From an uncultured bacterium (lineage in GTDB: Bacteria; Bacillota; Clostridia; Lachnospirales; Lachnospiraceae), in assembly GCA_947381965.1 (NCBI GenBank), contig CANCXX010000010.1:1-64000 (forward strand): a stretch of DNA of 64,000 nt, read 5' to 3'. The position numbers were made by a program, and so were the translations under genes. The notes beneath the pieces are model-generated. The model saw nothing but the letters and a program-made list of their open reading frames with translations. It was not told the DNA's origin and made no database searches. Within the stretch, counting starts at the first letter, position 1, and each line of letters starts with the position of its first letter. Shown here in pieces: positions 37,758-53,145 of this stretch.

Positions 37758-38672
37758 TCAGAAAACGGCCGGAAATATCAGGCCTTTCTTGTAATGCTCT
37801 ACAAATTTTTCCGGAAAATAAAATAATTCTATGTTCTCTTCAATCTTTTCACGATCCCAATTCCACCATTCTATGCGTTTCAGCTCTCTGATTATGTCTT
37901 CTGAAAAACGATATTTTATATGTTTTGCCGGGACGCCGCCTACAACAGAATAGTCAGCTACGTCTTTTGTTACCACCGCCCCCGCTCCAATAACCGCCCC
38001 GTCGCCAATTGTCACTCCAGGCAGTATTACCGCATAAGCGCCAATCCACACATCATTTCCAATTATAACAGGCGGACTGGCAGATCGGATATGAGCTTTT
38101 GCAAGTCTTATCCTCTCCGGTCTTTTGTCCCACGTATAATCCAAAACAGTTTCCAGAAAAGTATGCTGTGAAACACAATCTGTCATATGATTGACAACCG
38201 CCTTTGCACTTTTATGGATTGAACAATACCGTCCAATAGACTTCACCGTACTGTTTCCCAATAATGCCTCATAACCATAAGTATATCGTCCTATATTACA
38301 TCCCTTGTATTCAAAATCTTCTTTATGCAGAAATTCTCCTGCTGCAATGTAAAAACAGTCCTTACATCCAAATCCATATTGTTCCAGAGTATCCGGCAAA
38401 TGTACCTGATATGTCATTATTGAAACTAAAAGATAATCCTGTTCCTTACATACATCACTTATGGACACTACCTGATACCCTTCTTTATTCTGAATTTCAT
38501 CTGCACGTCGGTCAACAAAACCTGCCACAGCCACACTGTGTTCCGTTAACACATCCAACAGAATTTTTCCCCCATGTCCGGCGCCATAAATCCAAATATT
38601 TTTTCCTTTGGCGTGATAAAGGTATTGCTCCATTTTGTCTTCACATATCATACGAAACAGCTTATCGTTCAT
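37758..38672 (-). CDS. CatB-like hexapeptide-repeat acyltransferase with N-terminal nucleotide-fold domain
   Basis: 304 residues. The N-terminal 115 residues ([20 protein letters not shown]) form a PglD-like Rossmann segment. The C-terminal part is a left-handed beta-helix with hexapeptide repeats ([32 protein letters not shown]) and the [15 protein letters not shown] ending of CatB-type O-acetyltransferases. Last gene of the surface-polymer operon, overlapping the HAD-type gene by 11 nt. Probably O- or N-acetylates a sugar of the polymer. Confidence 0.85.
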
Positions 38673-41052
38673 AATTTAAAACCTCTAAATTGTTTTCATA
38701 AAAACCTATAATTTTTATCTGATTTCCTTTCTCTTCTACAATTTGTTTCCTAAGCAGACTATAGGCACGTTTTTCCCTGACTGGAATAAAATATAATCCC
38801 TCCGTTTTGTTATGCATGGAAGTTATTAAAATTCCATTGTATATCACATCGCGCATATATTCATTTATACTTACTATTCCTGATATCTTTCCAAGAGCCC
38901 CCATTGCCTTAAAGTAAATCATTGCAAGATCAGTTGTCAGGGTCCGTCCGTCAATTGCGATTGTAATCTTTCCCTCTCCTGCCTCTTTGACTGCATGCTC
39001 TACCAAAAGTAATGCAGATAATCTCTCATACTTTGCTTTCTGCAAATAAAAAGTTTTCAGATAAGCAAGGGGACTATTTAATGCTGTCAAAGCCGGCTGC
39101 CATGTTACCGATTGCTTTACATTTCTGAAATATTTATAAAACTGCTCTGTTCCCAATTCTTTATACTGCAGACAAAGCTTCTCTTCCAACACCGGAATAA
39201 TTCTATTCTCAATCCCCAAATTCTGATCAAGCTCTGCCGACCTGAGCCATTCCGCTTCCTGCAATAATGGATACGAAAACAGTCTCTCTATCATTGAAAG
39301 AGCCTGGTTTCCCTGTGCCTTTAAATCAATTTTTATTTCCTTATATTGGCGCATTTTAAAGTATTCTTTTTGAAACGCCATTACACCACGCTGTACAGCC
39401 TTAATATTAGACAGCCACTGGGCAGAATATATATTTTTATCAGTTACCGGCACTACTTTAGAACTGTCATATTTATAGCCAATTGTAGGTCCTTCATCAC
39501 AAAGACAAAAAAGTTCAAATATGGGACGGAAAATATGATTAAATTTCCCCTGCAGACTTCCGTAATTTCCGGCGAATCCTTTAATTACACATCCATCTAC
39601 AGAATTTTTTGCTACATTTTTGCTGCTGCATAACAAAAGCTGTATTAAACGCGCCTCCGGTTTTCTCTCCCGAACTGCCTTATAAACGGCGTTCATTGTT
39701 GTTCCATTCCATCCAATATCCAGTGTAATAACCGGTTCCATCAGCCCCATCTGCTGAAGATAGTCCATAAAAATATGCTTTTTGTCATAATTTCTTTTAT
39801 GTATAATATCTAAAATTTCTGATGAAGATAAATAATTATATATTGTGCTATATATACTGTTTCCATCAGCCGCATACAGGGATTTCAACTCCGTAAACGG
39901 GATATCCTTATATTTTTGAAAATCATGTACTAAGTCTGGAATTTGCAGCAACCGGAATATATCCTGGGGTATAACTCCTGCACCTGTCATTAATAAGGAA
40001 ATCTCTCCGGCTGTAATTTCCCCAAAACGGGATATATATGCAGCCATCCTTGAAATGTATAGTGGTTCTACAGATAATTTAATTCCCCTGTCCTCTGCTG
40101 CCAGGAGAATCATATCTGTAAGGAATCTGCCTTCACGCATAAAGGGCCGGATTTTGTATACTTTTTCTTTCAGAGCGGTTTCTACCACCCATTCGATTGC
40201 AAATGTCAGAAAAGGCCCAATTATCATAGAACCCAGTGTAAAAAAAAACTGATTTTTTTCCCCTATTTCCTGATTGTGATTTTCTGTCAGAAGCCTTGTC
40301 AGATATAGTTTTTCACACAACGGGGTATCATAAATTTCCTGCTCCCACAATATAAAAGGATTTCTGAACCGATGTTCCGGTATAAAATTATAATAACAGA
40401 CATGAATTCCCAGCTGTTTTGCTGCCAGAATATCTCTTTGAAGATTATCGCCAACATGAAGCAATTCTCCGGGCAGCAGCTTCTGGTCATTAAGTACAAG
40501 TTGAAAAAGTTTTCCATTTCTTTTGCAGCATTTCGCTTCGGAAGACACATAAATTTTTTTAATTAAAGAAAGATCCAGTCCACATTTTTTTAAAATATAT
40601 CCAATCTGTCCCGCATCCAGATACATATCAGATACAAATAAAATATCTTTATTACAATCCATATACAGATACTGTATTATTTCAACTATCTCTGTATTCA
40701 GAACGCCAATTTCACACTCGCTGTCAATTTCTAACTGCATTAATTCTTCATGGTTAGAATATACCGTTGGAAGGTGCTGATATATATCTGTCAGTGTAAC
40801 CTCCTCATGCCCATATTTTTCTTTTAAAGTACGACGTGCCTCTTTTTCTGCATTTTTACGGGAGTTTACCCAGTCCCCCATACTGGTAAAGGACGGGAAA
40901 ATATTACGTTTTTTCTGATACATCCGCCAGAAGACCTTGTCCGGCGTCACTACTGACCTAAATAATATTGAATCAAATACATCAAAGCTGACCGTTTTTA
41001 CTTCCTTATTATTTACCAGTTCATTCTTTATCAGTTCCATCAACTGTCTCAT
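38662..41052 (-). CDS. Large HAD-superfamily protein of the surface-polymer operon
   Basis: 796 residues. The N-terminus carries a HAD-like motif [19 protein letters not shown] (about 20-37), motif II-like [10 protein letters not shown] (about 136) and motif III/IV-like [17 protein letters not shown] (about 197), as in the COG5610-type predicted hydrolases found in polysaccharide clusters. The C-terminal 550 residues are of unknown fold. No signal peptide or membrane helix. Overlaps the cytidylyltransferase gene by 4 nt (ATGA) and the acyltransferase by 11 nt. May act on phosphosugar intermediates of the polymer. Confidence 0.7.
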
Positions 41053-41762
41053 TTAAACCACTCCGTTCTTTTTACCGCTAAAAGAGATTTAAAAATGTCA
41101 AAATCTTCAATAGAAGTAAGTTTAATATTTTTGTCTGATCCTGCTGAAAAATAAACCTGCTCCCCCATTTCAATCAGCAGAGTACATGATGCAACAGAAT
41201 TTGTGATTCCTTCCTTCAAAGCCTTCCTGTGTATATCACAGATTCTTCCAATCAGAAATCCCTGCGGCGTCTGTGCCCTGCGAAGAAGATTACGTGGGTA
41301 GCTGCCAGATGAAATCCTGCCATCCTCAGTCTGAAGCACCGCCTCTGCGCAGGGAATTGATGCAATTGCCGATCCGTGCGATTTCGTTTTAATTATGCAA
41401 TCCGAAATAATTTCTGCGGAAACCATAGGACGAATCGCATCATGAACTAAAACAATGTCATCCTTGCTAAAATGTTTTTCTAATTCAAAAAGTCCGTTAC
41501 GTATGGAATCCTGCCCATTTTTTCCTCCGGTAATAACATGATGAAGCTTGGAAATCTTAAACTGCTTCGCATATGCACGCAGAATCTTTTCCCATCCTTT
41601 CAGGCATACCACTGCAATGGAATCGATTTCGGGATGTTGTTCAAATGCCTCCATCGTGTAAACCAGAACTGGTTTTTCGTTTACTGTCAGAAACTGTTTT
41701 GGAATATCCTGATGCATACGACTCCCTTTGCCGCCTGCAATAATTAATGCTATAACAGCCAT
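41049..41762 (-). CDS. IspD/TarI family cytidylyltransferase
   Basis: 237 residues with the full IspD/TarI signature: IIAGGKGSRMHQDIPKQF (about 7-24), VLVHDAIRPMVS (about 104), RRAQTPQGFLIG (about 157) and KNIKLTSIEDFDIF (about 213). Transfers CMP from CTP to a polyol phosphate. In this operon, next to CDP-glycerol-transferase homologues, a TarI-like role (ribitol 5-phosphate or another polyol/sugar phosphate) is more likely than isoprenoid synthesis, but sequence alone does not separate them. Confidence 0.85.
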   Translation of the reverse strand: MAVIALIIAGGKGSRMHQDIPKQFLTVNEKPVLVYTMEAFEQHPEIDSIAVVCLKGWEKILRAYAKQFKISKLHHVITGGKNGQDSIRNGLFELEKHFSKDDIVLVHDAIRPMVSAEIISDCIIKTKSHGSAIASIPCAEAVLQTEDGRISSGSYPRNLLRRAQTPQGFLIGRICDIHRKALKEGITNSVASCTLLIEMGEQVYFSAGSDKNIKLTSIEDFDIFKSLLAVKRTEWFK

Positions 41763-41788
41763 ATATACCCTCCATTTCTCTTTTCCTG

Positions 41789-43540
41789 TTAACCTGCCTG
41801 TACGGGAGCTTCCAGCCGCAAAAATCCCAGATCCAGAATTTGACGGATTACTGCCTCTTCCAGATGCGGTTCTGATGTCAGGCAGTCACTTCCTCCATGT
41901 ATGTTGGGAAGAATCGAACAATCCTTATACTCTAACTCATAAAGAACCGGCAAATCATTTTTCAGCGTACTCTCATAATTTACAATATCATTTTCATCCT
42001 TCAATTTATATGCCTGTATTCCATACGCCTGTGCGATCCGTGTAAAGTCGCAGGAGAAGTAATCTCCTTCCCTTTCATCAGTTGCATAATAACGCTCATT
42101 CAGGTATGATTTTTGAAACAATAAAATATGTCCAAGGGCCCGGTTATTCAGTACAAATATTTTAATTGGCAGCTTCCTTTTACTGATAATATTTAACTCC
42201 TGAATATTCATCTGCATACCGCCGTCTCCCGATATCACACAGGTTGGACAGGAGCTTCCAATGGTCACGCCAATAGCAGCAGGCAGTGCATATCCCATTG
42301 CCCCAAATCCTCCGGATACAAAAAGACTTGTGTTCTTTTTGATTACAGATGACTGCGCACCATAAATTAAATTATTTCCAACATCCAGGGTTATGTTAAA
42401 ATAATCCGGCAAAAGCTCTGTAAGCTTATAAACTGCCTTGTTTCCAAATGTTACATCACAATTTGCCAGTATTTTTTTCATTGTGCCGCAGGCATTTAGC
42501 CAGTCCGAATGCTCCTCCATTGTCTGTCTGTTATGTAATAAGGTAACAGATTCTTTAATGAAACTATCCAGACTGGCACAAATCTGAACTTCATCTTTTT
42601 TTAATCTGTGTTCAAACTCTGATTGATCAATATCCACACGCAGCAGTTTTGCCCTGGGTGCAAACATTTCCAAATTATATCCCGTCTGCTTTCCACACAG
42701 TCTTGTTCCAAGCGTCAGTACAACATCTGCGGCTGCAAGCGCTATTCCCGCTTCCCTGCGTGCCGTTCCTCCAAGGTATCCTAACCTGCTTAAACTGTCT
42801 TCCGGCAGTAAATCAACTGCCGGAAGCGTTGTAATAACCGGAATTTTTAATAACTGTACAAGCTCACGGAACTCATTACGCACCCCGGCCTGACGAATAC
42901 CGGCCCCGGCAATAATGACAGGTTTTTTTGCCCTGGATAATTCTGACATACAGTACAAAGCTTCTTTTTCTGAGTGCAGCTCCTTTTGAAACTTTACTGG
43001 CATCTGCTTTTCAGCGAACAGCTCATTTCTGCAGATATTAATAGGCAGTTCAAGAAATACCGGTCCTTTCCTGTCGCTTAAAGCTGTAATCCATGCCTCT
43101 TCAAGGCATTTTTTGATATCCGTATCTGTATCAATCTCAAAAACTTCTTTTACTATAGAATCCACGACTACCGGCGCCTGTATCTCCTGAAATCCCAATT
43201 GCCTCACATTTAATAAACGCTTTTTGTCTTTGGTATTAACCTGACCTGATATACAGATAAGCGGAATAGAATCAAACCAGGCATCCGCAATGCCTGTCAG
43301 CATATTCGTAAAACCCGGCCCGCTTGTTGAAAATACGACCCCCATCTTTCCGGTGGCCTGGGCATATCCACAGGCAGCCAGAGCAGCCCCCTGCTCTGTG
43401 GCGCAGGCATGATAGTGTATCTTTTCCCTTCGTCTTCCCATAGCATCGAATAAATACGCAATCATCCCTCCCTGATACCCAAAAACATCCTTTACACCAT
43501 TTGATATAAAAAATTCTATAACATAATCTGCAACTGTCAT
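41789..43540 (-). CDS. Thiamine-diphosphate-dependent enzyme, acetolactate synthase-like
   Basis: 583 residues. Pyr domain with catalytic Glu in ACATEQGAALAACGYAQATG (about 46-65), central domain (about 190-320), and PP domain with the ThDP motif GDGGMQMN ... NN (about 440-470). No acetolactate synthase small subunit gene accompanies it. Within a polysaccharide operon it may be a YerE-like enzyme that adds a two-carbon unit from pyruvate to a keto-sugar, or a decarboxylase; both are inferences. GGGGGG-rich ribosome site before the ATG; 11 nt after the RpiB-like gene. Confidence 0.82.
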   Translation of the reverse strand: MTVADYVIEFFISNGVKDVFGYQGGMIAYLFDAMGRRREKIHYHACATEQGAALAACGYAQATGKMGVVFSTSGPGFTNMLTGIADAWFDSIPLICISGQVNTKDKKRLLNVRQLGFQEIQAPVVVDSIVKEVFEIDTDTDIKKCLEEAWITALSDRKGPVFLELPINICRNELFAEKQMPVKFQKELHSEKEALYCMSELSRAKKPVIIAGAGIRQAGVRNEFRELVQLLKIPVITTLPAVDLLPEDSLSRLGYLGGTARREAGIALAAADVVLTLGTRLCGKQTGYNLEMFAPRAKLLRVDIDQSEFEHRLKKDEVQICASLDSFIKESVTLLHNRQTMEEHSDWLNACGTMKKILANCDVTFGNKAVYKLTELLPDYFNITLDVGNNLIYGAQSSVIKKNTSLFVSGGFGAMGYALPAAIGVTIGSSCPTCVISGDGGMQMNIQELNIISKRKLPIKIFVLNNRALGHILLFQKSYLNERYYATDEREGDYFSCDFTRIAQAYGIQAYKLKDENDIVNYESTLKNDLPVLYELEYKDCSILPNIHGGSDCLTSEPHLEEAVIRQILDLGFLRLEAPVQAG

Positions 43541-43551
43541 CTTATCCCCCC

Positions 43552-44043
43552 TTAAATTGTGCTTTTCCAGTCGCTGTTTATAACCGGAGACTGGACAATC
43601 GTTTTTCCTTCCTCCAGATCCTTAATCTGATTTACCCGCAAGGCATGATGCTGTCCAATAAAACCGGAAGTAAGAAAAATTCCAAGGCGTCTTTCCACAT
43701 CTTCATATTTCATATGACTGGCTCCAAAGGCAATCACATTTGCGTCATTATGTTCACGCATTTTTCTCGTCACCTCATCGTCATAGCCAATTCCACACAT
43801 AATTCCTTTTATTTTATTTGCCGCAATTGCAATTCCTGTACCTGTCGCACAGATCAATACTCCATAATCACATTCTCCCAACGCCACAAGGCTGCCTACA
43901 TTTGCCGCAAATACCGGGCTGTCACATGGAATGTATTCATATGTACCCACATCCTTAACTTCATAATTATTTTCCTTTAAATAATGTATCAGCCTGGTTT
44001 TATAGTCCATGCCGCTGCGATCTCCGCCAATTGCAATTTTCAT
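43552..44043 (-). CDS. RpiB/LacAB family sugar-phosphate isomerase
   Basis: 163 residues. The family opening GSDHAG reads GGDRSG here (Arg for the usual His). The catalytic Cys loop is VLICATGTGIAIAANK (about 63-78) and HNDANVIAFGAS (about 101-112) is intact. Interconverts aldose and ketose phosphates, typically ribose 5-P/ribulose 5-P. Here it probably supplies a ketose or pentose phosphate for the polymer precursor made with the neighbouring cytidylyltransferase. Confidence 0.85.
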   Translation of the reverse strand: MKIAIGGDRSGMDYKTRLIHYLKENNYEVKDVGTYEYIPCDSPVFAANVGSLVALGECDYGVLICATGTGIAIAANKIKGIMCGIGYDDEVTRKMREHNDANVIAFGASHMKYEDVERRLGIFLTSGFIGQHHALRVNQIKDLEEGKTIVQSPVINSDWKSTI

Positions 44044-44067
44044 AAAGCTCCTCCCTCAGTTTGTTTG

Positions 44068-45105
44068 TTATTTATCTGAAAATCTTTCTATATCAACTGC
44101 ATAAATGTCATCCGGCGATTTAAGGGGCATCCATCCAAGCCGCTTTATTTTGTCATTATCCTGTACAAAAGAAAACGCAGGCAGGAAACCAATTTTTTCA
44201 GGATCCTGAATATCATACCTTACCTTAAGCTCCGGGCAATATTTTTCAAAAATATGCTCCGCCAGCTCCCGCAGGGAAACAAAAGTCTCCGGGTTTGTGG
44301 CATTATACACCTGGCCACTTGTCCCTCTAAAAAGCACTGTGAATATGGCCGCAATTGCATCCAATGAATATAAAAAGCATTTCTTTACACTACCGTCCGA
44401 TTTTAATATGAAATCTCTTTTTTCTATGATGCAGCGAAGTATCTCATTAAAAACCCTTGTTTCTCCATAAGGTTGAAGAAGCCCCTGAATGGAAGCGGGC
44501 CTGATTATAACTGTGTCTACTCCATACTCCTTCCAGTAAGCGCGGCACAAAAACTCACCGGCCTTTTTCCCCAACGGATATCCGCTTCTGACACTTAGAC
44601 TGTCTATTGCTCCTACATATTCTTCAGCAATCGGAAATGGGGAACTTATTGTTCCATATACATCCATTGAAGATAAATATAAAAAACGGCATTGCGCCTT
44701 CCGGCGCGTCATTTCCAGAAGTTTTTCCGTTTCATCTACAATAATCCTGAACGTTTCCACAGGATTATTTATGAAAAATGCCCTTCCAGTGGGAGCTGCG
44801 CCATGAATAATATAATCAACTGGAACATTATTTAATACGTCTGCCTCCATACCAAACCTGCAATATCTTACCTGATCACCCTGTTCTAAATAGGGAGGAA
44901 CATCTTCCGGTTTCCGTGTTGATGCAAAAATTTTAATCTCTGCATCATGGATCGCATTTTCTAAAAGCAGCCATTTAATAATTCCGGAGCCTGTCGTCCC
45001 GCCTGCTCCGGTAATCAAAAATGTTTTTCCCCGCATTTGTTTCTGGAAATTATATTTTTCCAGATAAGCCCGAAACTCATATTTTTCCAATTGAGATAAA
45101 TTCAT
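44068..45105 (-). CDS. NAD-dependent epimerase/dehydratase (extended SDR)
   Basis: 345 residues from ATG at 45105 (AAGGAG 9 nt upstream). Nucleotide-binding motif LITGAGGTTGSGIIKWLL (about 26-43); catalytic Ser in FLYLSSMDVYG and the YxxxK motif as YPLGKKAGEFL (about 175). C-terminal region contains the NATNPETFVSLRELAEHIF segment common to sugar-nucleotide epimerases. Likely modifies the nucleotide-activated precursor of this operon; the reaction is unknown. Confidence 0.85.
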   Translation of the reverse strand: MNLSQLEKYEFRAYLEKYNFQKQMRGKTFLITGAGGTTGSGIIKWLLLENAIHDAEIKIFASTRKPEDVPPYLEQGDQVRYCRFGMEADVLNNVPVDYIIHGAAPTGRAFFINNPVETFRIIVDETEKLLEMTRRKAQCRFLYLSSMDVYGTISSPFPIAEEYVGAIDSLSVRSGYPLGKKAGEFLCRAYWKEYGVDTVIIRPASIQGLLQPYGETRVFNEILRCIIEKRDFILKSDGSVKKCFLYSLDAIAAIFTVLFRGTSGQVYNATNPETFVSLRELAEHIFEKYCPELKVRYDIQDPEKIGFLPAFSFVQDNDKIKRLGWMPLKSPDDIYAVDIERFSDK

Positions 45106-45118
45106 TCTGCTGCTCTCC

Positions 45119-46666
45119 TTACTTTCCCAATCCAATAAGCTCTAAAATTCTTTTACAGCTGTTTCCATCCTGATGTGTGTGCATTAACGGCAATAGTTTG
45201 TGACGCTTTTCCTTTGACGAATCAATTCCATTTGCAATTTCTGAAAAAAAGGACTTCATATCATCGAAAGTATATATTTCTCTGCCTGGCAGATAATCCT
45301 GAAGCGGTTCAAAAACGAACCCTCTGCTTTCTTTATACTGCTCTTCGTCTTCCAGAACAAATGCCAGCGGTTTATCCCGAAGTACATAATCTACTGCCAC
45401 TGACGAAAAGTCGCTGATTAACGCATCTGAAAGAGCAAGCAGGCTATTAATCTGGAAGCCAGTCTGATAAATCTCTATATGAGACATGACTTTAATATTA
45501 GAAAAATCCAGCCTGCTGATAGCTGAACTTTCCTGTATGGGATGCAGTTTTATAACAAGAAAAATATCCAGCTCTGCCAGTAAGTTATTTAACTCTTTCA
45601 CCTTTCCCATCGTTGTCAGTACAGGCAAACCCGTATCAGATTCTATCTCATATTCATGCAGTGAACGAAGGGCCTTTACTGTTACACGGAAAGTAGGAAG
45701 CCAGAAAACATACTTCCCTGCCTTGGGGATATGAAGAATTTCATCAAGACCTTTTACCGGAGGCAAAAACAATAAATCCTCTTTTGCAAGTCCGGTGTCA
45801 AATATTTTATCCCTTGAACACCCAAGATACTTTTCATGTAAGTCCAAATAAAGCGGGCCAGAAACAGTGGTATAATCAAAAAAGTCATCCAGCGCTATAC
45901 TGTTTTTATTTTTCTTTGCCTTAAACCCATTTCCATGCCACAAATTTATGCGGACCTGCCCTTCTCCGCAAAAACGTGTCCACTGCATCGCATCTGTAAA
46001 AAAAATATATTTGGCTGTCCGCAAATGATAAAAATATCGTATTTTTTGAATAAGGCTCCCTGACCCTGGCCAGTCATAAGAAATTGCTTTTACATTACAA
46101 ATCTTATCAATTTCCGGATGATACTGTGGTTCGTGCACAAGCCAGATCATCTTATAATCCCGATTGTATCCTTCCGCTATCATATAATCAAACAACGCCC
46201 TGGCATTATCTGTATAGTCCCACCCAGGAATATAATGATAATTTCCGCTTCTGAATATAATCTTTTTTTGTGGTTTTAACCGACTGTACAGCCAGTAAAA
46301 ATGGTAAAAATGCAGTTCCTCTTTATGTGGGAAAAAATATGCTTTTCTTTCATTCCTCCAGCTGTCGGAACTCTCCAGCTGCTGTGCAACTTCTCTATAA
46401 AAAGAAGTTGTCAGCAATAAAATATGCTTTTCTTCCAAAGGAGAAATCTGTAAAGGATCCTCAATTAATATTTCACAGTTTTTAGTTGAAAAATATGTAT
46501 TCTGAATTTTTTTATTGTTATCCGCAATATGGGCAATGTGATATTCAAAATCATCTATTTCCTTACAAAGAGATTTCAACTTTTTTCCAGCCCCAAAACA
46601 ATAAAATACTGCTCCTTCTTTTATCCACTTTTTTACTTTTTTATCACTAAACGGAACCAGCCTCAT
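45119..46666 (-). CDS. CDP-glycerol glycerophosphotransferase family protein (TagF/TarF-like)
   Basis: 515 residues from ATG at 46666 (AGGAGAG 5 nt upstream), overlapping the upstream gene by 20 nt; an open frame reaches 46816 but would overlap 170 nt. N-terminal ~130 residues are accessory. The GT-B polymerase core shows NLWHGNGFKAKKN (about 260), LPTFR, KLHPIQ (about 385) and SDFSSVAVDYVLRDKPLAF (about 435-453), matching TagF/TarF/TarL. These transfer polyol phosphate from a CDP-polyol to teichoic-acid chains at the inner membrane face. Confidence 0.9.
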   Translation of the reverse strand: MRLVPFSDKKVKKWIKEGAVFYCFGAGKKLKSLCKEIDDFEYHIAHIADNNKKIQNTYFSTKNCEILIEDPLQISPLEEKHILLLTTSFYREVAQQLESSDSWRNERKAYFFPHKEELHFYHFYWLYSRLKPQKKIIFRSGNYHYIPGWDYTDNARALFDYMIAEGYNRDYKMIWLVHEPQYHPEIDKICNVKAISYDWPGSGSLIQKIRYFYHLRTAKYIFFTDAMQWTRFCGEGQVRINLWHGNGFKAKKNKNSIALDDFFDYTTVSGPLYLDLHEKYLGCSRDKIFDTGLAKEDLLFLPPVKGLDEILHIPKAGKYVFWLPTFRVTVKALRSLHEYEIESDTGLPVLTTMGKVKELNNLLAELDIFLVIKLHPIQESSAISRLDFSNIKVMSHIEIYQTGFQINSLLALSDALISDFSSVAVDYVLRDKPLAFVLEDEEQYKESRGFVFEPLQDYLPGREIYTFDDMKSFFSEIANGIDSSKEKRHKLLPLMHTHQDGNSCKRILELIGLGK

Positions 46667-49217
46667 ATATGTCTCTCCTATCATCATGTAATTTCTTTTC
46701 TGAAACTTCAGAAATAAAGGTATAAATTTTTTGACCGGCAGTTCCGTCAAGGTTTGCAGCAACGCAGGAAAAAGCCTCCTTTTGACGATCTTCATTATGC
46801 AGTTTTTGGCAGACATACAAAATTAAACGCCGGACAGAGTAATATTTAGATTCATAAATTCCCCATGGTAAATTTCCCCCCTGCTTTGAGAAACTATCAC
46901 CAAATGCTTTAAGCTCATCCTTTTCAGTTAATGCAACCTGTTTCCATTCAAATGTTCCATCGGTCAGAAATTTTGATAACCCATGTCTGTTTGCATCTTG
47001 TACTGCCACATTGCCATTTATCAGCTTTTTTACCATCAGAAAATGATCCGGATGATTATAAAATGGACTTTTCCGATTTTCCGTTGAAAACGGAAAATCT
47101 TTTTCCACTGCAGTCAGGATAAAATCCTTAATTGATAACTTTAGTATCATGGGACTTTTTCTTGGAAAAATATATGCGTTTCCCTTCAGCTCTACAATAT
47201 CCCAAAAACATATTTCTTCTTCCTTATTCCATCCCCTGGGAAACTCTCTGATTATTCTGGAAGCTCCACGCTGTGGGTCCCAGACTACTATTTCACAACC
47301 ATCCAGGCTTCCAAGCACAATTTTGTTAAGGACCTGTTCCATGCAGCAAAAACCTGTTTGTGAACCGGGGACTTTATGTATCCTGCTTCTCAGGCTCCTT
47401 AAATCATATTCCAAAATATATGGTTTATTGGGTGCTGCAAGGTAAATACTGTCTCCAATCAGCCGGGAACCGTTTGCAGATACCAAAATATCCGGTATCC
47501 CCGTTATCTCCCTTAATTCGTCAACAACCCCGGCATTATAGATCAAATCACCGCTTGCACAATTTAAAATCACTAATTTCTTATATAAACGTGGAATCAG
47601 GTAAACTTTATCCTCATATAAATACCCTTTATTAAACTTTTCTTTCTGTCCGGGTTTAGGAATTGCTATCTTGGTAAACTGTCTGTTTTTGATGTCAAAA
47701 ACTGCAATTTGTCTTGCATTACGTGGAATCAGGTATAATTTCCCCTTATTTACTAATATGTCACTATACAAGTTGCTTCTGTCTTTTTCTCCTGGAATAA
47801 TATAGTATTCTTCAATTTTTCCTGATTCAGTAATTTTCATCAGACCATTCCTGCCGGAAGCACAGGCCCATAAGTGCTGGTTATCTGCTGCGTCCATTAT
47901 ACAGCAGCAAATTTTTATATTTTCCACCTCCCTGCTTTCTTCTAATATTCCTTGATTAATAAAAAATAAAGGTTTTCCAAGTATTCCAAACATATGGGAA
48001 ATAGAAGAAGTTGGCTCTCCCAAGTAAGCATCTGACAGCTTTATTGCCAGTTCCGCATTCTCCGTACGGTCCAGAATACCATTTTTATACCTGCAAAATT
48101 TTTCGACAGTTTCCACATAAGTCTCCCAAAGCTCCGGACGCATAGAACAAATCGTGGCTTCGAGTAAAGGATGTGGACGCCAAAGCAATGTAACATTTTC
48201 CCTTTCAGCTACTTCCAGAATATATTGAATTTTCAACAGACTTTTTTCCCCATTTTTCAATAACCCGTTTATTCCGGTATTTAGAAAAAAAACCTTGTCC
48301 CTCAATTTCGGTTTCCACTCATCAGGTATCATTTTTTCTGTAACCACAAGATTAATCACTTTATCAAATTTAGGTGAGCCAAACGCACTTACCTTTTCTA
48401 AGACATCCTGATCGAAGAAAGGTATCTGACGTTCATGCTGGGCAATAATTTTGTCCACATAATAATACGCAGGAAGCGATCTGTGCATCCTGCCAATCAT
48501 TCCGCCTGTCACGTTATATGGTATATACACAAGTGTTCCTATATACTTTTTCAGATTATAGGAATAGTATCCTGGATGAACGCTTGTTACCAAATTATGT
48601 TCATCATAGGGATTGTGAATATATGCAATATCAGGGCTTTGATTCTCCAAATCATAAGACTGCCAGTCTGTTACTTCAACATAATCCGGATACTTATCTG
48701 CCTCATAATGTATCTGGCCAAAGCTTTTATCCGGATTCCGGTCGTAATAAGGTATCGGTACACAGTAAACATCACAATTTTTATCCGCTTTTGCCGTTAA
48801 ATATATACTTTCAAAGCTATCCCACATAGATACTTTATATGGGAAAAATACCACCTGCATTCTGGCACAGACATCATTTCTTATGCTGTTCTCAATACCC
48901 GCCAGTTGCCCTTTAAACTCTTCACATAGGTTTTTACATCTAAGAAACTGCTTTTCTGCCAGCTGTTCATAAACCTGAAAAAGCGCTTCGCAATATTGCT
49001 CTAAATAGGGAATCGTTACATGTCCTTCTCCTTCAAACTTTTCAATATATTCCCCAACCGCTATTGCAACTTCCTGACATTCGGTAAGTATCTTTTGCGC
49101 CCGGACACTATTTTTACTTTTTACTGCTTTATCAATTTCCTTATGTGCTTTCTGTAAAATATATACGGAATCCAATATTTCCTTTTTCTGTTTGTTTGTC
49201 ATTCCGTCTCTTTGCAA
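46647..49217 (-). CDS. CDP-glycerophosphotransferase-like protein fused to a beta-propeller
   Basis: 856 residues. The start may be TTG at 49217 (AGGA upstream) or ATG at 49202. About 10-100 is helical/coiled. About 115-420 resembles the glycerophosphotransferase fold: AYIHNPYDEHNLVTSVHPGY, TLLWRPHPLL and SDAYLGEPTSSISHMFGILG replace the usual KLHP and SDFSS motifs, so activity is doubtful. About 425-800 consists of six or so kelch-like repeats (GKLYLIPRNARQIAVFD, DKVYLIPRLYKKLVILN, GNAYIFPRKSPMILKL) that should form a beta-propeller. First gene of the surface-polymer operon. Could be a regulatory or substrate-presenting partner of the next gene. Confidence 0.7.
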   Translation of the reverse strand: MQRDGMTNKQKKEILDSVYILQKAHKEIDKAVKSKNSVRAQKILTECQEVAIAVGEYIEKFEGEGHVTIPYLEQYCEALFQVYEQLAEKQFLRCKNLCEEFKGQLAGIENSIRNDVCARMQVVFFPYKVSMWDSFESIYLTAKADKNCDVYCVPIPYYDRNPDKSFGQIHYEADKYPDYVEVTDWQSYDLENQSPDIAYIHNPYDEHNLVTSVHPGYYSYNLKKYIGTLVYIPYNVTGGMIGRMHRSLPAYYYVDKIIAQHERQIPFFDQDVLEKVSAFGSPKFDKVINLVVTEKMIPDEWKPKLRDKVFFLNTGINGLLKNGEKSLLKIQYILEVAERENVTLLWRPHPLLEATICSMRPELWETYVETVEKFCRYKNGILDRTENAELAIKLSDAYLGEPTSSISHMFGILGKPLFFINQGILEESREVENIKICCCIMDAADNQHLWACASGRNGLMKITESGKIEEYYIIPGEKDRSNLYSDILVNKGKLYLIPRNARQIAVFDIKNRQFTKIAIPKPGQKEKFNKGYLYEDKVYLIPRLYKKLVILNCASGDLIYNAGVVDELREITGIPDILVSANGSRLIGDSIYLAAPNKPYILEYDLRSLRSRIHKVPGSQTGFCCMEQVLNKIVLGSLDGCEIVVWDPQRGASRIIREFPRGWNKEEEICFWDIVELKGNAYIFPRKSPMILKLSIKDFILTAVEKDFPFSTENRKSPFYNHPDHFLMVKKLINGNVAVQDANRHGLSKFLTDGTFEWKQVALTEKDELKAFGDSFSKQGGNLPWGIYESKYYSVRRLILYVCQKLHNEDRQKEAFSCVAANLDGTAGQKIYTFISEVSEKKLHDDRRDIYEAGSV

Positions 49218-49379
49218 TCCTTTCCTGATTTCATTTCTGTCAATATTTTATTTAATATCTAGCTGTATTTGCCTTTTGGAATATATTAAATAAGATACAT
49301 ATACTTTTTTGTTTTAAAAATCTCACCTTATGGTTTTATTATAAAAAAATAAGGTATATTGGTCATTTGAAGGTATAAT

Positions 49380-49560
49380 CCTTTATCCATACAAATGATG
49401 CAGGCATTCCTGCTTCGCTCCCTGTTACATCACGGTTTTACCGTGTTCACAGGGTCATGGCATACCCAATGCGCAGCCTTTGGACTGCCTTCTAATGCCG
49501 TTTTTACATTTTTATATAGCAGCTCATCCCATCCTCTGGTTTCCTGCCTTATCATGAACA
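49380..49560 (-). ncRNA. Structured RNA region after the TnpB-like gene (guide/omega-RNA candidate)
   Basis: On the minus strand, about 130 nt after the stop codon, several stems occur in series: GGCAT...ATGCC (49495-49499 with 49459-49463) enclosing GCAG...CTGC (49485-49488, 49473-49476); CCCTGT...ACAGGG (49449-49454, 49420-49425) enclosing CACGG/CCGTG; and the terminal hairpin GCAGG-AATG-CCTGC within 49400-49413. The position (3' of a tnpB homologue, same strand) and shape are those of omega RNA / TldR guide RNA, whose guide would be the bases after the last hairpin, ATCATTTGTATGGATAAAGG (about 49380-49399). No open frame is present. Boundaries and function are inferred. The rest of 49218-49630 shows nothing else beyond AT-rich promoter-like sequence. 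Confidence 0.5.
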
Positions 49561-49630
49561 TATTATCCGGTCTTTACAGTAAAATCCCAATTTATAATCA
49601 GAATTTATCCAAATAAATGTTCTTATGATT

Positions 49631-50947
49631 TTAGTTTAAACCACCGTCACCTGTTCCACGCTTCTTTGCATTTCGCGCTGTGTTCATCTTTTCTTCTGCG
49701 CTGTAACCGCAAAACTGGCATAAAAATAAACCTTTCTGCTTTATTCCCGTCATTCCACAGCAGCTGCATTCACTACTGATGTTTTTTCCAAAAACTTCTA
49801 TAACTTCAATTGAGCGCTCTCTGCATTTCCATGCCAGACGGCGCTGAATATAGCCCCTCTGCCAGAGCGTAACTGAATTATTTATTTTTTTATTCATTCC
49901 GCCTGCCTGCTGTGCCGGAAGCTTTGGTATATATATAATATGGGGCTTTTCTGACTGTAAAAATCTGTTAAGCTCCTGATTTATATAGCCATGCAGTTGT
50001 TCTTCATAACGCCTTTTTTTCGCCTTGTACTTTTTACGTCCAGGATTGCTATTACGGTTTCGCTGGTATATTTCTGTCTGCTTTCGTATCCAGTCAGCAT
50101 ATTCCGTCTGGTACCTTCCAAAATTCTCCCCATACTGATTCCCACCATCGGTTGTCAACATGGTATACATTCCTAAAGATATTCCCACCAGATTTATATA
50201 ATCCTCATAGCTGTGAACGGTTACATTAACAGGTATTTTGATTTCGATATTTTGTTGTTCCGGATAAAGTTTTATATAAATCTGTGACTGATATTGGTTG
50301 CTGTCAGTAAGTGGCACAAAAATACGCTTTCGTTTCTCCTTTACAGATATATATATCCCATGATCTCCATAACGGTATGCTCTTTCCCCTGCCGGAAATC
50401 CTTCTGCCGGGGCCGTATGTAGTCTATTATGATATTTTCTCACCTGCCTGCACAAATAGCGATGCAGGCGCTCTGTCTCAACCTGTCCGGCCAGTCTGTC
50501 ATATTGTCCCTGAATCTCATCAGGTAATTTTTCTACTTGCTCCTGTCCCAGCACCGCTATAAACGCATTGCTGACTTTAAGCAAAAATCGCAAATAATGC
50601 TTTTCTTCTGGCGAGAAATTTTCATTTTGTCCTATCAGATTTGAAATTTTTAACTTCGTTCTTGTCCACTGGACTTTAATATCATTTGAAGCGTCCAAAA
50701 CCGCAAGGTAAAAATATACAGAAGGCAGATTCAATTGTTGCCGCAATCCACTTTTTGTCATTTCATTTTGCACACTATATCCCGGATAAAGCTTTTTAAG
50801 ACTTCCAACTCCGCCAAAACGTTCATATACATATTCTTTTACCCTGTTATAATCATCTGCAATCTCCAGAAGTTTTTCCATATCACCTTTAGAAACTGGC
50901 AGTTTATTATACTGGTGTACTGTTTTGCATATAGTTTTTTTTTGCAT
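49631..50947 (-). CDS. Nuclease-dead TnpB homologue (TldR-like)
   Basis: 438 residues, intact. The C-terminal half aligns by eye with IS200/IS605 TnpB: RuvC-I region VGISLGMYTMLTTDGG (normally GIDLG), RuvC-II HIIYIPKL (normally an Ile/Val-Glu-Asp-Leu), zinc ribbon CSCC ... CQFC, and RuvC-III EEKMNTARNA (normally D-x-N-A-A). Thus the three catalytic acidic residues are Ser, Pro and Lys, while the zinc ribbon and the basic N-terminal half survive. No TnpA gene or clear element ends are present. Naturally dead TnpBs called TldR are RNA-guided transcriptional repressors; that role here is inferred. A plain degenerate transposon protein is the alternative, but the frame is undamaged. Confidence 0.8.
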   Translation of the reverse strand: MQKKTICKTVHQYNKLPVSKGDMEKLLEIADDYNRVKEYVYERFGGVGSLKKLYPGYSVQNEMTKSGLRQQLNLPSVYFYLAVLDASNDIKVQWTRTKLKISNLIGQNENFSPEEKHYLRFLLKVSNAFIAVLGQEQVEKLPDEIQGQYDRLAGQVETERLHRYLCRQVRKYHNRLHTAPAEGFPAGERAYRYGDHGIYISVKEKRKRIFVPLTDSNQYQSQIYIKLYPEQQNIEIKIPVNVTVHSYEDYINLVGISLGMYTMLTTDGGNQYGENFGRYQTEYADWIRKQTEIYQRNRNSNPGRKKYKAKKRRYEEQLHGYINQELNRFLQSEKPHIIYIPKLPAQQAGGMNKKINNSVTLWQRGYIQRRLAWKCRERSIEVIEVFGKNISSECSCCGMTGIKQKGLFLCQFCGYSAEEKMNTARNAKKRGTGDGGLN

Positions 50948-51013
50948 TAAAAATTCTCTCTTCAGGATACAAAACTACTAAATCAAAACTTTATATTCCC
51001 TTATTTAATCTGC

Positions 51014-51169
51014 ATTACCACAATGTTTACTTTTTGGTAATAAAAAATTTATGGTGAAAATTACTAAGAAAAAAACACAGGAGCTTCTTGATTTTGGAAG
51101 AATTTTATAGTATACTCACTACTGTTAAGGAATATAAAATAATATCCAAAAAGTAAAGGTTTTGGTAAT
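51014..51169. repeat. 24-nt inverted repeat flanking the promoter region upstream of the TnpB-like gene
   Basis: The complement of 51014-51037 (CCAAAAAGTAAA, then CATTGTGGTAAT) and 51146-51169 (CCAAAAAGTAAA, then GGTTTTGGTAAT) are identical at 21 of 24 positions. The arms face each other across 108 bp that hold a strong rightward promoter. They may be twin operator/target sites for divergent transcripts or a relic of transposon ends. Confidence 0.65.
51088..51116 (+). promoter_or_regulatory. Promoter of a rightward small transcript
   Basis: TTGATT (51088-51093), 17-nt spacer, TATACT (51111-51116). No gene follows on the plus strand, only a hairpin terminator about 90 nt later. Confidence 0.65.
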
Positions 51170-51248
51170 TTTTCAACTTATCAATATAAGCTGTGAATAA
51201 ATTAAAACCCTGTTGGTCATAACTTTAAAGAACCAATAGGGTTTTATA
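51123..51248 (+). ncRNA. Candidate small RNA divergent from the TnpB-like gene
   Basis: A near-consensus promoter upstream and a 14-bp hairpin terminator (51204-51217 with 51232-51245) bound about 125 nt with no reading frame of note. Its 5' part contains one arm of the 24-nt inverted repeat. Function unknown; it could be unrelated to the TnpB-like protein. The remaining sequence to 51346 is AT-rich with nothing recognised. Confidence 0.4.
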
Positions 51249-51250
51249 TC
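51204..51250 (+). terminator. Hairpin terminator of the candidate small RNA
   Basis: AAAACCCTGTTGGT (51204-51217) pairs with ACCAATAGGGTTTT (51232-51245) with one G-U pair, followed by ATATCT. It can act in both directions. Confidence 0.65.
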
Positions 51251-51346
51251 TAATCATTTTATACAATCTTTATTCACTTAATATTTTGTTGTTTTCAGTT
51301 AATATTATATTTTATAAATTCCTTATCTTTTAAACATTTTCTGAAA

Positions 51347-51613
51347 TTACCACTTTTTATAAGGACAAGGATTTCTTTTCACTGCCGCGCGCAATTCCAC
51401 ATAACAGCCGCATGCCCCGCAGGTTCCCGCTTCCAGGTAATCGCATTTCTTACAGATCCGCAGCCTGCCCTCGTATACTTCCCTCTCAGTTTTTACATCA
51501 TTATCAAGCAGTTCAATATAGCGGTGAAGCTTTTGCATATAAGCCTCCTCATCTATCTCACGCAGAAGGCATCTGTAACAATGCCTTCTGCTCTCTTTGC
51601 ATTCCTCTTCCAT
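51347..51613 (-). CDS. Small cysteine-rich protein (DUF6171-like)
   Basis: 88 residues from ATG at 51613, chosen because GGGAG lies 5 nt before it; an ATG four codons earlier is inside that site. Nine or so Cys in two groups: HCYRC near 12-16, then CKKC, CGACGC and CPYKKW at the C-terminus, a pattern suggesting one or two zinc sites. It resembles the small DUF6171 proteins of Clostridia (tentative). It follows the arabinofuranosidase stop codon closely (24 nt) and is probably cotranscribed. Function unknown. Confidence 0.6.
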   Translation of the reverse strand: MEEECKESRRHCYRCLLREIDEEAYMQKLHRYIELLDNDVKTEREVYEGRLRICKKCDYLEAGTCGACGCYVELRAAVKRNPCPYKKW

Positions 51614-51636
51614 CCCATCTCCCATATTTTCAAGTT

Positions 51637-53145
51637 TCAGCTAACATGCAGGCTAATCACACTACACGCCGGAATGATAAAAGAAATTCCTTCATCTGTC
51701 ACGGCAAAGTCTTCAAAAGCTTTCCCCTTTACTTTTTCAGGCTCCTCAAACGTATTGTGTGCATGTATTTCTCCATTCAAAATTTCCGCCTTTACTTCTT
51801 TCGGCTTCTTCTTTGCAAATACGATTTCCACAAAATGTCTGTCTGAAACAGACAAATTTGCAAGTGTCACAAGGATGCTCCCATCTTCCTTCATAGATAC
51901 AGATTCCTGAAGTGCAGGCATTTCATATTCTTCCATACCGGTTGTTTCCTCTTCTGTAAGAAAGCTCTCCACAAGCTCCGCCCCCTGATGATCCTTATAC
52001 ATACGGAAGATATGATAAGTGGGCGTCAGAAGCATCTTGTCCCCTTCTGTAAGGATAACCGACTGCAAAACATTTACCATCTGGGCAATACATGCCATTT
52101 TTACTCTGTCACAATGTTTATTAAATATATTTAATGTCAGGGCCGCCACCAGTGCATCTCTCATGGTATTTTGCTGATACAAAAATCCTGGATTGGTTCC
52201 AGGTTCAACTTCATACCAGGTTCCCCATTCATCCACAATCAGCCCAATTTTCTTCTCCGGATCATATTGATCCATTATCGCGCCGTGAAGCCTAATCAGC
52301 TTATCCATATACAATGCTTTATCCATAGTCTGATACCAGGTCTTTTCATCAAAATCAGTGGCGCTGCCTTTGTTATCCCATCCGCCCGGGTGTACATAAT
52401 AATGAAGTGAAAGACCATCCATAAACCCATGGAAATCATTTTCCGGATGCGGGCTTGCATAGCAGGTTTCCAGCACCTTCTTTGTCCAATTGTCATCATC
52501 TGCATTTGGTCCGCCGCAAATCTTATTAATAGGAGCCGCCTTTCCATAGTGACGCACATAAGTCTGATACCGACGATAAAGGTTCCCATAATACTCCGGC
52601 GTCATATTTCCGCCACAGCCCCAGTTTTCATTTCCAATTCCAAAATAATCCACCCTCCAGGGCTTATCATGTCCATTTTCCCTGCGCATATCTGCCATAG
52701 GGGATATGCCGTCAAATGTCATATATTCCACCCACTCAGACATTTCCTTTACACTGCCGCTTCCTACATTGCCATTAATATAAGTTTTACACCCCAACTG
52801 CCTGCAAAGCTCAAAAAACTCATGGGTACCAAAGCTATTGTCCTCCAGCACGCCGCCCCAATGTGTATTTATCATCTTTTTCCTGTTTTTTTTCGGCCCT
52901 ATGCCATCCATCCAGTGGTATTCATCAGCAAAGCATCCCCCCGGCCAGCGAAGCACCGGAATCTGAATGTCCTTTAATGCCTCCACCACATCCGTACGCA
53001 TTCCGTTAATATTCGGAATACCCGAATCCTTCTTCACAAACAGACCTTCATAGATACATCTCCCCAAATGTTCTGAAAAGTGGCCATATATTTCAGGATT
53101 AATATGACCCTTTTTCTTCTTTTCATTAATATACAATTTCGCCAT
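51637..53145 (-). CDS. abfA: GH51 alpha-L-arabinofuranosidase
   Basis: Releases arabinose from arabinan, arabinoxylan or their oligosaccharides. 502 residues from ATG at 53145 (GGAGG 6 nt upstream). The opening [20 protein letters not shown] is the GH51 signature. Acid/base Glu in [13 protein letters not shown] (about 173) and nucleophile Glu in [16 protein letters not shown] (about 292). No signal peptide, so it acts on imported oligosaccharides. The C-terminal beta domain begins about 385. No arabinose transporter is adjacent. Confidence 0.95.

Follow-up and report, generated by a model that had tools for sequence, protein, structure and literature searches.

The window analysed here, a stretch of 64,000 nucleotides (nt) from an uncultured bacterium of the Lachnospiraceae (GenBank assembly GCA_947381965.1, contig CANCXX010000010.1, positions 1 to 64,000), carries on its minus strand, at 49631-50947, a gene for a nuclease-dead protein of the TnpB family, followed by a conserved RNA and a surface-polymer operon. 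The best reading of this locus, which we hold to be probable though far from assured, is that of a regulator of TldR type which is phase-variable and, guided by RNA, would silence other surface operons. It is drawn from features read in the DNA: a dead catalytic triad, the RNA, a promoter present in both orientations among related loci, the association with operons, a recurrent motif resembling a protospacer with its transposon-associated motif (TAM), and an excess of matches of about 10 nt between guides and sites other than their own. The features at the centre of this reading are:

49631..50947, minus strand: nuclease-dead TnpB-family gene, 438 aa, with S257/P341/K420 at the D/E/D positions
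49338..49630, minus strand: structured guide-RNA-like region directly after the stop codon, conserved across the aligned loci
49347..49501, minus strand: 3' domain of the RNA, covariance model R1, 136 bits (one of the 27 sequences from which the model was built)
49338..49357, minus strand: putative guide, 5'-ATACCTTATTTTTTTATAAT, with statistical support for the first ~10 nt only
49289..49305, minus strand: TAM-like AGTATAT and protospacer-like GTATCTTATT in the operon leader, with 0 consecutive nt matching the own guide

The frame of 438 codons is intact, and the C-terminal half of the protein belongs to the TnpB/Cas12f superfamily. It matches the Pfam family Cas12f1-like_TNB with 34.4 bits (gathering score 26.3) and the NCBIfam model guided_TnpB with 57 bits, under that model's cut-off of 100; in a profile search of PDB chains, Cas12f chains were found with E~1e-8 and the TnpB chain 8bf8, which we take to be ISDra2 TnpB, more weakly (E=0.017, positions 254-428). 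The catalytic positions were assigned by alignment with the closest triad-keeping relative found, L234 (GIDKG / MENLD / SDTNA), which served as reference for the RuvC positions; they are occupied by S257, P341 and K420, the D/E/D triad of active IS200/IS605 TnpB is absent, and the zinc ribbon is retained, as the original prediction had read from the frame. By loss of its RuvC residues the protein is predicted to be cleavage-dead. Residue E325 is unchanged across 91 homologues (L234 has a serine there, by eye), and we do not think that it substitutes for the lost site. The PADLOC defence scan returned Cas12-type matches only. A scan of the 91 loci with crude regular expressions found no motif of Y1 TnpA, CsrA or flagellin, which agrees with the earlier remark that TnpA is missing from the locus.

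The genome from which the window derives (4.3 Mb, 92 contigs) contains five further full-length open copies of the gene (54-62% identity), hence six in total, every one triad-dead; no other TnpB was found there by search with the guided_TnpB model. For comparison, the best 80 of 250 related loci (57-67% identical) were taken from a scan of species genomes at E<=1e-3 and combined with 11 others to a set of 91 proteins; the relatives' titles name Sporofaciens musculi, Dorea sp. 5-2, Schaedlerella arabinosiphila, Acetatifactor muris and mostly other Lachnospiraceae or Clostridia. The frame is open in 91/91 homologues, and in every one of them all three catalytic positions are non-acidic (first position, A59/S29/H2/N1; second, V55/P18/A11/I4/M1/T1/Q1; third, K84/R5/A2), and the median ratio of nonsynonymous to synonymous substitution rates (dN/dS) was 0.074 for 29 of the 30 closest pairs, the remaining pair being saturated. 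The original prediction had proposed dN/dS as a check. An isolated degenerate copy is rejected on the six dead copies, the 91/91 open frames and dN/dS of ~0.07; the picture named beforehand as fatal to the idea, a lone decayed copy among active TnpBs, is contradicted by the multi-copy dead family and its grouping in the tree. In that tree (FastTree, 24 sequences) the three intact-triad sequences group outside the dead members (split support 0.92), and the dead group includes members of ~36% identity; the triad may have been lost in one old inactivation, or in two. Among the 291 genomes of the class that were searched, one strong match with intact triad (L234) turned up besides the own genome, along with weak matches in three genomes; two of these were examined and were both triad-intact. 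Only 4/60 relatives of the own genome, the own genome counted, carry a copy, so that the distribution of the family is patchy. The dead-TnpB frames at L018 and L033 measure about 508-526 aa and include additional in-frame sequence around residue 140 (two match pieces). Loci with dead TnpB and RNA were also seen on viral-binned contigs of a viral collection (L092, L093), and in each a cluster-0-like gene comes next downstream. A viral origin was considered and dropped (no hit in the single-protein scan; 2/33 candidate stretches in the alignment scan).

The region between the dead-TnpB gene and the next gene is noncoding and strongly conserved; the 5' end of the guide-RNA-like region 49338..49630 is not defined. 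A 3' domain of <=165 nt was present at 29 loci, of which 26 were aligned together with the window sequence. These 27 domains share six helices with 98.3% of the cells paired, and 18/27 pairs have changed on both sides (0/500 shuffles were as good). The covariance model detects the RNA after the gene in 80/82 loci (own genome, 6/6); the misses are L041, whose sequence stops 22 nt past the gene, and L032, which seems to be without the RNA. In ten whole genomes the RNA follows 37/37 listed gene copies, and 43/44 matches of the RNA model lie directly downstream of a dead-TnpB gene. Orphan guide RNAs were thus rejected, the sole exception being a 67-nt piece at a contig edge in G021. A remote relative in G034 has an RNA score of 33 bits, and Rfam gave no match up to E=1 within 48000-53000. 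The RNA ends in CAAT, followed by RTRYYTTATTW and then divergent sequence (84/91 loci by pattern; no guide was obtained by pattern in the other 7/91). GGYTATAAA takes the place of this end in L081, L085 and L086, three loci of one genome that have a common, different guide start (ATATCGGYTATAAA); L081 has tandem RNA ends. Conservation of RTRYY through pairing with an internal GGCAU was rejected, 12/27 sequences having C.A there. We infer from this arrangement that the RNA of the 3' flank acts as a guide RNA.

Downstream of the RNA the window carries the following operon genes:

46647..49217, minus strand: first operon gene, cluster 0, 856 aa, with the motif LVYIPY where related loci have protospacer-like sites
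45119..46816, minus strand: protein with CDP-glycerol glycerophosphotransferase domain (surface polymer)
38662..45135, minus strand: further same-strand genes, presumed to belong to the same operon (epimerase, RpiB-like isomerase, thiamine pyrophosphate enzyme and two more, one of them with a sub-threshold HAD match)

A stable association with non-transposon genes was found: with open reading frames of >=130 aa, taken mechanically, the nearest downstream gene lies on the same strand in 85/86 loci; the nearest upstream gene is on the same strand in 55 and on the opposite strand in 26. The commonest first genes are those of cluster 0 (37 loci, the 856-aa gene of the window included) and a protein of ~176 aa (16 loci); among the other neighbours are DegT-type aminotransferases, cytidylyltransferases and proteins whose N termini read as signal-like. 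Neither cluster 0 nor the small proteins received a Pfam or NCBIfam name above cut-off, and the label 'surface operon' therefore rests on their neighbours.

The RNA-end motif RTRYYTTATT recurs 0-500 nt after the gene, 18 times on the plus strand (counted as the operon strand) and once on the minus strand. Within 900 nt it occurs at 24 places, 16 of which lie directly behind AGTNTAT; some of the others are further RNA ends. Since these sites have AGTNTAT where the RNA has CCAAT, they take on the appearance of a protospacer with its TAM. They are located in leaders, 40-208 nt past the RNA end, or inside the cluster-0 gene, where they coincide with the codons of LVY[IV]PY, and are nearly all on the operon strand; at L032 a leader site lies at +55. 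A position-weight scan of 0-2500 nt gave 37 matches on the operon strand versus 1, a result that is partly circular, as the matrix was trained on 16 of them. The strict pattern AGTNTATRTRYYTTATT has 38 matches in 28 whole genomes (reversed pattern, 3), and for 35/38 the gene matched or the next one downstream is homologous to a family neighbour, once to dead TnpB itself. Half of these strict sites (19/38) lie inside dead-TnpB loci, where the pattern was learnt, which is again partly circular; of the 19 outside such loci, 16 adjoin or hit a homologue of a family neighbour. The sites in coding sequence are possibly in part coincidental, through the protein motif LVY[IV]PY; the leaders, however, carry the same ~20 nt including the TAM-like part. 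The guide has the sense of the site's coding strand, and so would pair with template DNA and not with the transcript; a site predicted to be bound by the protein with its RNA is AGTTTAT-ATACCTTATT.

The guide of the window matches a site in a cluster-0 gene on contig C17 of the own genome (first 12 nt, 15/16 overall) and 10 nt of another site, C25:66050. No dead TnpB was found in the 18 kb examined around the C17 site or in the 14 kb around the C25 site, and the C17 polymer locus may be a trans target of the window guide. The C17 locus (L137, 1669-11924) has a flagellin gene and glycosyltransferase-like genes beside the polymer locus, with two protospacer-like sites; the C25 site belongs to a cluster-0 surface operon (L138) with an integrase-like gene upstream. 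Further matches in the own genome are those of guide L003 (14 nt) and guide L006 (11 nt) in the operon of L005; guide L005 in turn agrees over 11 nt with a site in L002's leader. In this comparison, for which the motif was present in 6/8 cluster-0 genes and absent from two, pairs of a guide with its own site never exceed 5 nt. Fewer than six leading nt are shared between guide and own site in 47/47 pairs. At the leader site of the window itself, the best of the six own-genome guides matches 3 nt.

The moderate excess of non-self matches was evaluated at all 38 strict sites with 10,000 shuffles of the guides, a match being another guide of the same genome that agrees over >=10 nt. Left out of these tests were nine guide-less copies or fragments and a few split or low-scoring copies; the guide of the G060 copy L102 was assigned by hand from L012. 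The pattern was first seen in the own genome (G000) and in G060, and G061-G073 were examined before the test was fixed, so that only the 13 genomes G361-G373 were untouched. In the 28 genomes 15/38 sites were matched versus 7.55 after shuffling (P=0.0023); without G000 and G060 the numbers were 8/28 versus 3.45 (P=0.014), and for the 13 new genomes 4/14 versus 1.42 (P=0.043). A long guide matching within +/-8 kb of its own locus was rejected, being seen at only 4/84 loci (L024, L027, L069, L076). An all-against-all comparison of 13-mers from the RNA end (560 versus 246-291 shuffled) was not used, as its top matches are the shared RNA-end motif.

Upstream of the dead-TnpB gene lie features of a switch:

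51016..51041: inner 26-bp invertase-like site, TACCACAATGTTTACTTTTTGGTAAT, 21/26 match to the outer site (18 in one shuffle of the locus)
51142..51167: outer invertase-like site in inverted orientation
51042..51141: presumed invertible segment with promoter, between the two sites
51088..51116, plus strand: sigma70-type promoter TTGATT-17-TATACT, reading away from the gene (OFF)

Two such 26-bp near-palindromes, inverted to each other and 106-165 bp apart (median 132), recur upstream of the gene and match at >=20/26 positions in 63/85 loci (one letter shuffle per locus, 15-18). They vary among loci and agree within a locus, as is typical of the crossover sites of invertases (hix/gix). The better-scoring promoter points away from the gene in 54/63 loci, among them all six own-genome copies, and towards it in 9; in the window the gap between the two directions is small (10.3 away versus 9.5). 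The segment is inverted relative to the others in six loci (L015, L040, L045, L053, L055, L084), the cleanest pair being L016/L040, whose segments share 97.2% identity over 108 bp and run in opposite directions between colinear flanks. The pairs L055/L066 and L015/L021 have opposite orientations too, with extra upstream copies, and a larger rearrangement is possible there; both orientations were seen across related loci, not inside one strain. An upstream gene cluster of 8 loci, two of them in the own genome, is represented by one tested member that matched PF00239 (Resolvase). Inverted crossover-like sites around a promoter, with both orientations found, are features of a serine-invertase phase switch. 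Another upstream cluster, in 9 loci, is phage-integrase-like (one member tested); all nine reach only 16-17 for serine-type sites and may use a different switch. Upstream in L055 lie further dead-TnpB gene pieces, at about -282 to -852 relative to the start of the gene; one piece is divergent, a picture suggestive of a single invertible promoter having served two operons.

Under the favoured reading of cross-silencing, the dead TnpB would work with the RNA from its own 3' flank, and the promoter between the serine-invertase-like sites would flip from OFF, as assembled here, to ON and back. In the ON state a single transcript would give the dead TnpB, the guide RNA and the surface operon; the ribonucleoprotein (RNP) would attach to sites flanked by AGTNTAT that lie in the leaders, or early in the coding sequence, of other surface operons, pair with their template strand and block transcription. 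The own operon would be spared because the guide mismatches its own site, and cells would as a result tend to express a single surface coat at any one time. Of this course of events we infer co-transcription, formation of the RNP, its binding to DNA, repression, self-sparing and mutual exclusion. A genome-wide form of it is plausible and is put forward tentatively: an RNA-guided allelic exclusion of coats, in which the guide of each phase-variable operon silences the sister operons and not itself. Guides with a short seed would then also silence operons without a dead TnpB, and guide and operator sequences would diversify operon by operon, keeping self and non-self apart. The domesticated, TldR-like regulator of surface genes that had been proposed at the outset is supported by the multi-copy family, covarying RNA, invertible promoter, surface operons and guide-like matches. 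The original prediction had named as possible targets the adjacent surface-polymer operon or a remote surface gene; the remote gene fits better, and the adjacent operon less well, since guide and site of one operon do not match here.

Several results weigh against RNA-guided cross-silencing. At L032 a dead-TnpB gene is present with no RNA match in its downstream flank, and the guide start could base-pair within the RNA, its partner being GGCAU or GGUAU. The genomes G061-G073 alone gave no significant excess (4/14 versus 2.35, P=0.17), and the lack of own guides on own sites at >=10 nt (0/19, expected 2.09) is not significant by itself (P=0.09). At >=11 nt, 7/38 sites were matched in all genomes versus 5.04 (P=0.18), 1/28 without G000 and G060 versus 1.35, hence no excess, and 0/14 in the 13 new genomes; at 23/38 sites, the leader site of the window included, there was no matching non-self guide. 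As there is no excess beyond nt 10, the guide would be very short, or the match is in part a shared motif. Outside the two discovery genomes G000 and G060, the numbers support a short seed and give no support to a long guide.

Alternatively, the RNA could be a cis-acting leader, of riboswitch or antiterminator type, for the operon that follows it, possibly bound by the dead TnpB as an RNA-binding protein; the motif would then be another leader element, or an operator in the DNA for a different protein. We regard this as unlikely: the RNA does sit between gene and operon, the motif does occur in leaders, the guide start may pair within the RNA and matching shows no excess past nt 10 outside the discovery genomes, but the motif is also found inside the coding sequence of first genes and in two surface loci of the own genome with no dead TnpB in the surrounding 14-18 kb, seed identity with non-self sites is above expectation, and the TAM-like flank stands at the sites and not in the RNA. 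Autoregulation by the same RNP, bound to its own leader or first gene and tuning or delaying its own operon, draws on the fact that protospacer-like sites often belong to the same operon, either in its leader at 40-208 nt from the RNA end or within its first gene. We judge it quite unlikely, in that own pairs stay below 6 nt in 47/47 and below 10 nt in 19/19 cases while non-self pairs reach 10-14; the objection is limited by the fact that the self deficit is not significant on its own.

The strand of the sites bears on a further possibility, that the bound RNP helps its target operons to be transcribed. Activators derived from nuclease-dead Cas12f are known, and nothing specific speaks in favour of one here; the sites, which are found in leaders and in coding sequence and with few exceptions on the operon strand, fit a roadblock better, and an RNA-guided activator is very unlikely. 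That the genes are degenerate, functionless IS200/IS605 remnants, to which TnpB homology and a lost triad might point, is hardly credible and is already contradicted by 91/91 open frames, dN/dS of ~0.07, the conserved RNA and operon order, and the failure to find an active TnpB in the own genome.

TldRs are known for the control of flagellin and transporter genes. The fliC- and oppF-associated TldRs, reportedly described by Wiegand and colleagues in 2024, are said to combine a dead RuvC site, a guide RNA 3' of the gene and linked non-transposon genes; the present family is alike in all three and differs in the genes to which it is linked, and we know of no multi-copy network of invertible promoters for those TldRs. 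Active TnpB and Cas12f share the C-terminal homology with the present protein; those cut DNA, whereas the triad is absent here. Bacteroides capsule loci have Mpi-invertible promoters and cross-locus exclusion by UpxY/UpxZ via antitermination proteins. They resemble the present loci in phase-variable promoters, a regulator heading each operon and inhibition across loci, and differ in that UpxY and UpxZ are proteins that act on antitermination, whereas the trans factor here would be RNA-guided.

The closest likeness is with the csrA-linked TldRs of Oscillibacter and Flavonifractor, for which Walker et al. (2026, PMC13418256) report hin, promoter inversions of ~120 bp and flagellins as predicted cross-targets. 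Both systems have a dead TnpB with a guide RNA (putative here) downstream, a switch upstream (hin and inversions of a ~120-bp promoter segment there, invertase-like sites here) and several loci per genome, with guides that predict cross-targeting of homologous surface genes. The genes linked to and targeted by the csrA/fliC TldRs are flagellins with CsrA, neither of which was met here in the regular-expression scan of 91 loci; the present loci are linked to surface-polymer or surface-protein operons in genomes of Lachnospiraceae type, with the RNA in the operon leader and with sites that include a conserved coding motif. The loci of the present family look as if one device had been put to use a second time, with surface polymers as its object. 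No description of the family was found among the papers listed from the open-licence literature, searched by title and start of abstract, closed-access work being outside this search; a paper on invertons of gut communities, in the portion available to us, mentions neither TnpB nor transposase.

If the reading of cross-silencing is true, RNA-guided control of transcription would extend to capsule- and teichoic-type polymers in a major group of Clostridia and would be coupled to an invertible promoter, and it would provide a mechanism against co-expression of several phase-variable coats, an RNA counterpart of the UpxY/UpxZ logic of Bacteroides. The predicted guides, TAM and sites can be read in the sequence and are directly testable. 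The host bacteria are related to gut commensals, and in them an RNA would, as it were, decide which coat genes stay silent.

Two neighbouring features complete the description of the loci. In the window, a DUF6171 protein (51347-51625, minus strand; 115.6 bits) is encoded between the inverton and an arabinofuranosidase gene. At 12 loci (cluster 7; e.g. L014:6067-7779) a gene for a protein of ~541 aa, ATPase-like by reading only, lies upstream on either strand.
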